In this document: piece by piece, positions 28,771-31,558 of the stretch
How the letters are laid out: each line of letters begins with the position of its first letter
Position numbering within the stretch: position 1 is the first letter of the stretch
Source of the DNA: Halobaculum sp. CBA1158
GTDB lineage: Archaea > Halobacteriota > Halobacteria > Halobacteriales > Haloferacaceae
NCBI RefSeq assembly: GCF_021431925.1
Contig: NZ_CP090371.1
Location: 2,170,001-2,234,000 of the forward strand
DNA length: 64,000 nucleotides
Direction of reading: 5' to 3'
The notes under the pieces: model-generated
Seen by the model: only the letters and a program-made list of their open reading frames with translations
What the model was told of the DNA's origin: nothing
Databases searched by the model: none
Position numbers and translations under genes: made by a program

Positions 28771-28778
28771 CCTTTTTG
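28771..28778 (+). promoter_or_regulatory. TATA-like box for menB
   Basis: CCTTTTTG lies about 25-32 bases before the ATG at 28803, so menB may be transcribed separately from menD. Confidence 0.45.
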
Positions 28779-28802
28779 CGCGCGCCGGCCGCCGGTTCGG
28801 GT

Positions 28803-29822
28803 ATGAGCGACAGCGACGACGCGGACGACGCCAACGACGCGGACGACGCGGGCGACGCGACCGACGCGGGCGACGCCAACGACGCCGGCGGGGACGACAG
28901 CAGCGCTGTCTCCGATATCTTCGACCCCGAGCGCTGGGAGCCGGTCGACGGGAGCGACGCGTTCGACGACATCACCTACCACCGCGCGGTCGACTCCCCG
29001 ACCGTTCGGATCGCGTTCGACCGCCCGGAGAAGCGCAACGCGTTCCGCCCCGGCACGGTCGACGAACTGTACGCCGCGCTCGACGACGCCCGCAAGCGCG
29101 CGAACGTCGGCTGCGTCCTGCTGACGGGGAACGGCCCCTCCCCGAAGGACGGCGGCTGGGCGTTCTGCTCGGGCGGCGACCAGTCCGTCCGCGGCGAGTC
29201 GGGGTACGAGTACCGCGACGACGACGAGGCCGACGAGTCCGACGACCGGTTGGTGCGGGAGGCGAAGGCCGGCCGCCTCCACATCCTCGAAGTCCAGCGA
29301 CTGATTCGATTCATGCCCAAACCGGTCGTCGCGGTCGTCCCGGGCTGGGCCGTCGGCGGCGGCCACTCCCTGCACGTGATCTGCGACCTCACGCTCGCGA
29401 GCGACGAGCACGCGAAGTTCCTCCAGACGGACCCCGACGTGGCGAGCTTCGACGGCGGCTTCGGTTCCGCCTACCTCGCCAAGCAGGTCGGCCAGAAGAA
29501 GGCCCGCGAGGTGTTCTTCCGCGGGAAGACCTACTCCGCCGAGGAGGCCGTCGACATGGGGATGGCGAACGAGGCGATCCCGCACGAGGAGTTGGAGGAC
29601 GTGGCGCTGGAGTGGGCCGACGAGATGACGAGCAAGTCGCCGACGGCGATGCGGATGCTGAAGTACGCGTTCAACATGACCGACGACGGCATGGTCGGCC
29701 AGCAGGTGTTCGCCGGCGAGGCGACCCGGCTGGCGTACATGACGCCGGAGGCACAGGAGGGTCGCGACGCGTTCTTAGAGGGTCGAGAACCGGATTTCTC
29801 CGACCACCCGTGGCACTACTGA
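28803..29822 (+). CDS. menB: 1,4-dihydroxy-2-naphthoyl-CoA synthase
   Basis: 339 residues of the crotonase fold. The MenB-type pieces are RPEKRNAFRPGTVDELYAAL, AFCSGGDQSVRG, PGWAVGGGHSLHVICDLTLAS, TDPDVASFDGGFGSAYLAKQVG and the C-terminal PDFSDHPWHY. It closes the naphthoate ring of o-succinylbenzoyl-CoA. The start at 28803 adds a 35-residue acidic N-terminal tail of DAND/DAGDATDAGD repeats, which is not part of the enzyme core. Confidence 0.96.
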   Translation: MSDSDDADDANDADDAGDATDAGDANDAGGDDSSAVSDIFDPERWEPVDGSDAFDDITYHRAVDSPTVRIAFDRPEKRNAFRPGTVDELYAALDDARKRANVGCVLLTGNGPSPKDGGWAFCSGGDQSVRGESGYEYRDDDEADESDDRLVREAKAGRLHILEVQRLIRFMPKPVVAVVPGWAVGGGHSLHVICDLTLASDEHAKFLQTDPDVASFDGGFGSAYLAKQVGQKKAREVFFRGKTYSAEEAVDMGMANEAIPHEELEDVALEWADEMTSKSPTAMRMLKYAFNMTDDGMVGQQVFAGEATRLAYMTPEAQEGRDAFLEGREPDFSDHPWHY

Positions 29823-29888
29823 CCGACCACTTTTCACGGGGCCTCGCGCCCACCGGGCGCTCGACCCCCGCCAAAACCCGTCGATGCT

Positions 29889-29992
29889 GCAGGAACGCTT
29901 CGCGTTCCTGCTGCTAACCAGACGCCTGCGGCGTCTGGTGATGCGGTCGGATTCGAAGAATCCGACTGCTAATCCGAATCGCGAAGCGATTC
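29889..29992. repeat. Series of four 3-base-loop hairpins
   Basis: Perfect inverted repeats occur at 29889-29911 (loop TTC, 10-bp arms), 29917-29939 (loop TGC, 10-bp arms), 29946-29966 (loop GAA, 9-bp arms) and 29976-29992 (loop GAA, 7-bp arms). They are separated by short TGCTGCTA/TGATG/TGCTAAT spacers. The arm sequences are unrelated. A GGGCC-TT(C)-GGCCC hairpin follows near 30025-30040. Confidence 0.9.
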
Positions 29993-30067
29993 TGATGATG
30001 CTCAAAAGGCCGCTCGCTCGGGCCTTCCGGCCCTCACTCGCGGTACGACCCCCCGGAACTTCCGCAC

Positions 30068-30516
30068 CGCCACCGCGACAGCAACGCTACCGTCACCGCG
30101 ACAGCAACGCTACCGCCACCGCGACAGCAACGCTACCGCCACCGCGACAGCAACGCTACCGCCACCGCGACAGCAACGCTACCGCCACCGCGACAGCAAC
30201 GCTACCGCCACCGCGACAGCAACGCTACCGCCACCGCGACAGCAACGCTACCGTCACCGCGACAGCAACGCTACCGCCACCGCGACAGCAACGCTACCGC
30301 CACCGCGACAGCAACGCTACCGCCACCGCGACAGCAACGCTACCGCCACCGCGACAGCAACGCTACCGCCACCGCGACAGCAACGCTACCGCCACCGCGA
30401 CAGCAACGCTACCGCCACCGCGACAGCAACGCTACCGCCACCGCGACAGCAACGCTACCGCCACCGCGACAGCAACGCTACCGCCACCGCGACAGCAACG
30501 CTACCGCCACCGCGAC
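30068..30516. repeat. 23-bp tandem repeat array (about 19.5 copies)
   Basis: The unit CGCCACCGCGACAGCAACGC plus TAC repeats head to tail with no spacers. The only variation noted is a T for C (CGTCACC), in two units. The length 23 is not a multiple of 3, so the array encodes a 23-residue repeat only if read as frame-shifted triplets. It is therefore not a coding repeat. Together with the hairpins it fills most of the 788 bases between menB and menA. Confidence 0.95.
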
Positions 30517-30579
30517 GGCGCGGCCACGTTCACGGGCCCGCCGCGGGCGAGGGGAGACGACCCGCGCTCGTAACCCATC

Positions 30580-30588
30580 CTTCATACT
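30580..30588 (+). promoter_or_regulatory. TATA-like box for menA
   Basis: CTTCATACT lies about 27 bases before the ATG at 30611. It favours that ATG over the GTG at 30602 and gives menA-menC a promoter of their own after the repeat array. Confidence 0.45.
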
Positions 30589-30610
30589 CCGTCCGCTCCG
30601 AGTGCCGCCA

Positions 30611-31558
30611 ATGAGCACGGAGACGAGTCAGGCCGACATCTCCAGGCGGCGGGCGTGGGTGATGGCCGCGCGGCCTCAGACCATGCCGGCGGCGCTGGCT
30701 CCCGTCCTCGTCGGCACGGGGCTGGCCGTCCGCGACAGCGTGTTCGCGCCCCTGCCGGCGCTGGTGGCGCTGGTGGGCGCAGCGCTGATCCAGATCGGGA
30801 CGAACTTCGCGAACGACTACTACGACGCCGAGCAAGGCGCTGACACCGAGGACCGCGAGGGATTCACCCGCGTCACGGCGGGCGGGCTCATCGAGCCCGC
30901 GGCGGTGAAGCGCGCGATGTGGCTCACGTTCCTCGCGGCCATCCTCGTGGGCGCGTACCTCGTCGCCGTCGCCGGGCTGCCGATCCTGATCGTCGGGCTC
31001 GTCTCGGTGGCGATGGGCGTCGCCTACACCGGCGGTCCGTACCCCCTCGCGTACCACGGCCTCGGCGACGTGTTCGTCTTCCTGTTCTTCGGGCTCGTCG
31101 CCGTCACGGGCACCTACTACGTGCAGGCGGCGGCGACGGTAGGGGTCGCGTTCGGCACGCTCGTTCCCGGTCCGGACCTCGTCCCGCTCGCGGCCGTCGT
31201 CGCCGCCCTTCCGGTGGCGGCCATCGCGACGGACATCCTCGTCGTCAACAACCTCCGCGACCGCGAGGAGGACGCCGCGACCGGCAAGAACACCCTCACG
31301 GTCCGCTTCGGCTACGGCTTCTCGCGGGCGCAGTTCGTCCTCCTGCTCGGGATGGCGTACGCGATCCCGCCGGTGTTCTTCGCGTCGACGGGCGATCCCA
31401 CGGTCCTGCTCCCCCTCCTGACGCTCCCGCTTGCGGTGCCGCTGACGCGGACCGTCCTCACGGAGACCGCCGGCGACGCGCTGAACCCGGCGCTTGAACG
31501 GTGCGGAAAGCTCCACGCCGCGTTCGCGGCGCTGTTCGCCGTCGGACTGGCGCTGTGA
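30611..31558 (+). CDS. menA: 1,4-dihydroxy-2-naphthoate polyprenyltransferase
   Basis: 315 residues and eight or nine helices of the UbiA superfamily. The first Asp motif, [20 protein letters not shown], at 65-84 and the second, [17 protein letters not shown], are MenA-like. [18 protein letters not shown] begins the first helix. It attaches the isoprenoid chain to DHNA. The stop codon overlaps the menC start (GTGA). Confidence 0.95.

Follow-up and report, generated by a model that had tools for sequence, protein, structure and literature searches.

The four hairpins downstream of a menB-like gene in Halobaculum sp. CBA1158 are not unrelated structures, as a first reading made from the letters of the DNA (hereafter the sequence-only reading) had stated, but two tandem copies of one two-hairpin unit of 57 nt each. 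We think that they are probably two stacked copies of a mobile twin-palindrome DNA mini-element, which is characterized by the linker TGCTAA and by the right end GATG or GACG. The window is the whole stretch of DNA that was analysed, 64,000 nucleotides in length, and the following features are relevant here:

28776..29822, + strand: menB-like gene, open reading frame from TTG at 28776 with an ATG at 28804; upstream neighbour, outside the element
29830..29886, + strand: 5' module, consisting of CTTTT, an imperfect hairpin and the end CCCGTCGATG; 23 aligned copies (alignment A1)
29884..29940, + strand: twin-hairpin unit 1, covariance model match of 62.7 bits
29889..29911, + strand: hairpin 1a, 10-bp arms, loop TTC
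29917..29939, + strand: hairpin 1b, 10-bp arms, loop TGC
29940..29943, + strand: GATG, right end of unit 1 and also left flank of unit 2
29941..29997, + strand: twin-hairpin unit 2, covariance model match of 77.1 bits
29946..29966, + strand: hairpin 2a, 9-bp arms, loop GAA
29976..29992, + strand: hairpin 2b, 7-bp arms, loop GAA, followed outwards by a single C-T mismatch and three further pairs
29997..30000, + strand: GATG, right end of unit 2
29998..30049, + strand: 3' module, CTCAAAAGGCCGCTCGCTCG-hairpin-CTCACTCGCGGTACG; 14 aligned copies (alignment A3)

All four three-base-loop hairpins between 29889 and 29992 are present with the arms and loops that had been described for them. The spacers given as TGCTG and TGATG are not exact, as they read TGCTA, GATGCG and TGCTAATCC at maximal pairing. 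From aligned copies the unit plan is ATG(C/T)-HP1-TGCTAA-HP2-(T)GATG, with a length of about 55 bases (45-59 bp across copies). The arm sequences differ between the hairpins, which is why they were initially taken for unrelated, whereas the linkers and the plan are constant. The impression of one repeated design was thus right and can be put more strongly: the design is a twin hairpin in which the linkers are fixed and the stem sequences free, and it occurs here in two tandem copies. The clustering was compared with 100 dinucleotide-preserving shuffles of the 64-kb window, in which hairpins with arms of at least 7 bases and a three-base loop were counted per 110 nt. The best cluster held one hairpin in 74 shuffles, two in 25 and three in one, against four in the window, so that none of the 100 shuffles gave four hairpins within 110 nt and the possibility, raised along with the first description, that random sequence produces the same frequency does not hold. 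The window as a whole contains 30 such hairpins, whereas the shuffles average 17.35 and range from 8 to 26.

When folded as single-stranded DNA, the stretch 29884-29997 forms the four hairpins at -45.9 kcal/mol (z -12.08), and the 221 nt from 29830 to 30050 fold well as RNA (z -7.64); since folding is good in both forms, it cannot by itself decide between a DNA and an RNA element. An Rfam search of 29600-30700 with E up to 10 found no family at its gathering score, and the sole match within the hairpins was NsiR4 with 13.9 bits where 40 are required. Readings of the letters as a C/D box (TGATGA/CTGA) or as a hammerhead core (CTGATGA) were dropped, as these letters lie partly inside stems that change in other copies.

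The unit is established by its matches as a family dispersed across the haloarchaea, which contradicts the initial statement that the hairpins do not form a repeat family. A covariance model, R1, was built from 19 sequences, namely copies of the Halobaculum group and two Natronococcus copies, and was used with a threshold of E up to 0.001 per genome, these E-values being rough because of a shortened calibration. R1 matches 211 of 391 haloarchaeal genomes in 65 of 86 genera, and 180 genomes have no match. Across the phylum, 32 of 294 sampled genomes match, all of them the own genome or members of the same family or order; the negatives include 242 genomes that may lie inside or outside the class. 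An exact pattern search was positive in 7 of 170 genomes of the family, all in the genus of the window, and a reversed control pattern gave 0. The own genome contains a second copy (G000:C1:942538-942718), which lies after another gene and has one hairpin pair instead of two, and the arms of hairpin 1a recur in a copy from genome G008 (L015) with the loop GAA instead of TTC. Within the window, matches above 10 bits occur only at 29.9 kb, and elsewhere none exceeds 9.5 bits. A second close pair of long three-base-loop hairpins exists at 1143-1192, with arms of 10 and 11 bp that are 2 nt apart; this pair lacks the TGCTAA linker and gives no match with R1.

The ends of the unit were taken from the model match in a set of 102 distinct units, hand-picked from 185 match rows of a search that covered 100 of 145 sampled loci. 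Same-place duplicates, rows overlapping a better match on the opposite strand and rows below 34 bits were left out of this set, and a site inherited by several genomes is counted more than once in it. As the sampled loci are mostly best-scoring matches, the share of units that lie in tnpB, for instance, cannot be read as a frequency across genomes. At the right end, 78 units have GATG and 14 have GACG, thus GAYG in 92 of the 102. On the left, GATG (38), GGTG (16), CATG (13), GGCG (10) and TTTG (9) are found besides others, and both tetranucleotides are identical in 34 units; these counts describe the sample rather than numbers of events, because related rows are not independent. Taken as a table of sequences, the 102 units favour an element-borne right end over a plain target-site duplication. 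The copies in an ABC transporter gene and in a carbonic-anhydrase-like gene have GAYGT on both sides, and for these a short target duplication and an element-borne end fit equally well. Both hairpins have a CAGA/TCTG foot, and the unit ends therefore share a short inverted match; a long inverted repeat was not found on reading the units. The left foot reads ...TGTCGTC in many copies, which contains CGTC, and others do not have it.

A constant right end together with a looser NNYG left flank corresponds to the geometry of IS200/IS605-type elements, with the target on the left and the element's own end on the right. Elements of this type move via a single-stranded hairpin intermediate. Copies of the unit would accordingly be expected, if they are mobile, to insert 3' of an NNYG target, to bring along their own GAYG end and to leave precisely. 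The GAYG end of each copy would re-create a favoured target for the next one, which would lead to head-to-tail stacking as seen at 29884-29997.

We infer mobility and its direction, insertion or excision, from the comparison of filled and empty sites. The compared loci demonstrate, at the level of their sequences, that units are present or absent at otherwise matching sites, codon sites included. In the ABC transporter gene, the unit or a shorter twin hairpin of 45 nt is present in 5 of 31 distinct loci (L134, L082, L159, L162, L164), where the insert follows TAC-GACG (GATG in L082) and the filled frames stay open; the site is uninterrupted in the other 26, of which 13 read GACGTCGA. In one genome, an open reading frame that we presume to be aldehyde-ferredoxin-oxidoreductase-like (L077) contains an in-frame unit, which loci from seven other genomes lack. 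In tnpB, a site near the N-terminus has the unit at one place in eight loci (L081, L086, L087, L104, L106, L108, L118, L122), and the tnpB frame runs through it in five of these (L081, L086, L104, L106, L118). In-frame insertion is thus found in unrelated genes, which are the ABC transporter gene (L134, L082), the L077 reading frame and tnpB, and the copies in the carbonic-anhydrase-like gene are out of frame.

This latter gene, which we take from its sequence to be beta-carbonic-anhydrase-like, was compared in 13 loci, of which 3 are filled, 9 uninterrupted and 1 not anchored. The filled genes (L176/L095, L179/L100, L186/L129) contain a 58-nt insert that breaks the frame with an in-frame TGA, and the codons after the insert look constrained (pN/pS 0.058/0.313, 0.091/0.465 and 0.082/0.438, about 0.2). 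Recoding, ribosome bypass or a recent insertion may underlie this situation, and a recent or independent insertion can suffice for the constrained codons without recoding. In a gene tree of 480 columns the filled genes are not grouped, with two of them pairing with empty genes at supports of 91/87 and 92/87, values that fall short of the 95/80 threshold of the tool, and with the third unplaced. This scatter of the filled genes makes repeated gain or precise loss at the site likely, although not firmly so.

The enzyme that would move the unit was sought in two ways, and neither the presence of Y1 genes in the 391 genomes nor the examination of 20 Y1 loci revealed a mobilising enzyme. Y1_Tnp (PF01797) genes, with RAYT subclasses pooled, occur in 267 of the 391 genomes. 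The unit is present in 151 of the 267 genomes with and in 60 of the 124 genomes without Y1 (odds ratio 1.39, p 0.16 in a test that ignores kinship), which corresponds to Y1 in 151 of 211 unit-bearing genomes versus 116 of 180 without the unit. A Y1 transposase as mobiliser is thus unsupported, and several unit-bearing genomes do not contain any Y1 gene. In the 20 Y1 loci, three-base-loop hairpins with arms of at least 7 bases were looked for up to 350 nt before and 500 nt behind the gene; 4 loci have one, and in 2 of these 4 it is a twin hairpin upstream of the Y1 gene (L227, L239). R1 matches at E<0.001 in 4 of the 20 loci (L227, L232, L233, L236) with 19.6-23.1 bits, and the match adjoins the Y1 gene only in L227, where it is the upstream twin hairpin; the other three lie more than 1 kb away. 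According to PMC6006769, no TnpA-Y1 subclass other than the IS200-type subclass 1.1 has been observed in Archaea, and a RAYT/REP-type transposase is therefore not expected.

Among the described systems, the PATEs of Haloquadratum walsbyi come closest in their way of working (PMC3119063). Like the unit, they are haloarchaeal, have no transposase, contain palindromes close to their ends, lack long terminal inverted repeats and use a short target oligonucleotide, and a 52-bp "terminal-only" form with strain-specific copies has been reported. Going by their published description, however, PATEs have palindromes similar to IS605-type ends and usually a longer core, whereas the unit has free palindromes, no core and a GAYG end, is spread across many genera and sits in frame in some genes. 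The SMR elements of Haloquadratum (PMC3119063) are also small, without transposase and often inside IS605-type elements, but they possess prominent terminal inverted repeats where the unit has only the short CAGA/TCTG match. Terminal inverted repeats, in that case shared with a parent transposon, would likewise be expected for a MITE. REP and REPIN elements with their RAYT resemble the unit in short palindromes, a fixed end tetranucleotide, pairs, clusters and some in-gene copies (PMC3733652, PMC6006769). The tags given there for REP superfamilies are GTAG or CGTC, compared to GATG/GACG at the right end of the unit. Stem changes at 17 of 18 pairs across genera, and between the two units of the window, set the unit apart less clearly, since REP families with subsets of different stems have also been reported (PMC3733652); archaea are mentioned in that paper only in the reference list. 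Rickettsia palindromic elements (PMC10969869) are palindromic inserts in frame inside unrelated genes as well, but measure ~150 bp, as opposed to about 45-59 bp for the haloarchaeal unit with its twin hairpins and free stems. We do not file the unit under PATE, REP/REPIN, MITE or Rickettsia elements, and no published description of it was found in a search whose reach ended before supplements and most subscription journals. We tentatively consider that it could represent a class-wide REP-like twin-hairpin system, with NNYG insertion, precise exit, recognition by shape, independence of RAYT and correction of the stems at the DNA level. In such a system the mobiliser might be an unrecognised enzyme or IS200 transposases acting in trans.

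How the palindromes are maintained is indicated by the variation of stems and loops. In 135 distinct aligned rows, 97.8% of the stem cells are paired and both-side changes occur at 17 of the 18 pairs, with a stem covariation of 0.449 compared to 0.145 (sd 0.006) when shuffled and to at most 0.078 with the partners slid. The 97.8% leans towards structure, because the alignment is fitted to the model and takes in opposite-strand and partial matches, and its related rows are not independent. Of the 102 distinct units, 92 have a 3-nt loop in the first hairpin and 96 in the second. At the shared tnpB site, the eight sampled loci differ per base by 0.48 and 0.60 in the loops, by 0-0.10 in the arms and by 0.11-0.17 in the flanks, where a one-base shift of L122 inflates the value of the right flank. 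Most arm changes at this site are compensated, and its loops include reverse-complement pairs (GCA/TGC, GGA/TCC, GCC/GGC, GCG/CGC). G-U pairs make up 32 of 2163 paired cells in the unit versus 63 of 1033 in 49 tRNAs, which were taken from 30 tRNA loci of the window genome and from other sampled loci and serve as a rough yardstick with non-independent cells. As the loops flip and vary fastest, arm changes are compensated and G-U pairs are rare, upkeep of a perfect palindrome as DNA is favoured; the loop inversions, together with stems that are almost entirely Watson-Crick, suggest palindromes that function and stay perfect as DNA.

Some of these observations would also fit a process without any transposition, in which slippage or template switching at DNA hairpins creates the palindromes and recombination between ATG/GATG repeats gains or loses units. 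Reverse-complement loops in otherwise equal hairpins are what such a process could produce, the unit number does differ at one locus, menB, and short direct repeats usable for recombination exist at filled sites. By itself, however, it does not explain why the same linker and right end occur at unrelated genes in many genera, nor why whole units of 45-58 nt occupy a codon site at which close relatives have no insert, and we regard it as fairly unlikely.

The menB locus itself shows how variable the arrangement is. The name menB goes back to the sequence-only reading, and a stretch of the protein is 96 or 97% identical in 10 other genomes of the genus. The hairpins are preceded by CTTTT at 29830-29834, 7 nt past the menB stop codon, which opens the 5' module, and the GATG at 29883-29886 that ends this module is also the left flank of unit 1. 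In the genus the unit often lies in such a modular 3'-flank element, which begins with a 5' module whose end reads CCCGTYGATG or similar, continues with n units and closes with a 3' module of the form TCAAAAGGCCGCTCGCTCG-hairpin-CTCGCTCGCGG. Among 11 genomes of the genus, the menB flank contains two units in one genome, one unit in two and none in three, and the element is absent within the 330 nt read in five. One search pattern located 5 sites where the 5' module joins the 3' module directly with no unit in between, and three genomes show such a joint at menB. A related 5' module occurs together with the unit in two Natronococcus records. Inside this modular repeat the unit pair may be neutral at menB. 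Both modules (29830-29886 and 29998-30049) are dispersed repeats themselves, mostly just past stop codons, and their hairpin tips vary freely. A further hairpin type stands beside the unit in L103, L109, L140, L141 and L142, with stems after TCGTTCGA and ending TCGTGATG; the partner stems end CGAACCACG or similar and frame a unit. Right after the element, at 30066-30516, a near-perfect tandem array of the 23-bp sequence ACCGCCACCGCGACAGCAACGCT follows (19.6 copies, 99% matches), which as a query gives weaker matches at many other places of the genome.

From its position, the element could be thought to be an RNA element, i.e. a series of 3'-UTR hairpins that is selected as RNA because it terminates, protects or labels the menB transcript. 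A stop triplet stands just before CTTTT in 20 of 24 5' modules (by reading, with the frame checked for menB; 3 are without and 1 is incomplete), the stems covary, and the 221-nt stretch folds well as RNA. In Haloferax volcanii, hairpins are located upstream of 503 3' ends and one hairpin terminator has been tested, according to PMC7237163. With the haloarchaeal terminators described there the element shares the 3'-flank site and, in its 5' module, a T-stretch near the stop, but the hairpins of the unit come after the T-stretch and their number varies between species at one gene. Termination by the four hairpins, which was among the functions initially considered, is not supported, as on reading 29993-30049 no T-run follows them on the + strand. 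The presence of 0, 1 or 2 units at menB, with 5 of 11 species having no element there, also speaks against a selected RNA, as do the rare G-U pairs and the fast-varying loops. A part in RNA stability or as a protein-binding platform, also considered initially, is conceivable, but units are found in coding sequences in both orientations, which is unexpected for a dedicated 3'-UTR signal. We consider the RNA explanation unlikely.

The tnpB sites raise the alternative of a domesticated piece of an IS605-type element, in which the unit would be part of the tnpB/guide-RNA region and would have spread mainly as a passenger. A pattern search at the tnpB 3' end yielded 13 filled variants and 1 empty variant. 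In the 13 filled variants the unit interrupts the 3' arm of a CCCCACCC...GGGTGGGG palindrome, perhaps the guide-RNA region, and in the empty variant this palindrome is uninterrupted. These recurrent sites, including the 8 sampled N-terminal loci, agree with a passenger, and much of the spread of the unit may indeed be hitch-hiking in IS605-type tnpB elements. An uninterrupted tnpB 3' end does exist, however, and units are also found in non-IS genes and in 3' flanks such as that of menB, so that an origin as a domesticated IS605 piece seems improbable to us. Chance palindromes in GC-rich DNA, finally, have a practically negligible probability: the 30 such palindromes of the window exceed its own shuffles, but no shuffle places four of them in 110 nt, and the homologues elsewhere and the family as a whole refute this view.

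With the mobile twin-palindrome mini-element as the preferred reading, what looked like a string of hairpins becomes a family of tiny elements that appear to be mobile, occur in 65 of 86 sampled haloarchaeal genera and are able to lodge inside genes in frame. If recognition by shape with free stems proves true, the family would offer a clear-cut system in which to study single-strand hairpin transposition. With the filled and empty sites described here, experiments in tractable haloarchaea can directly address insertion, precise excision and tandem stacking.
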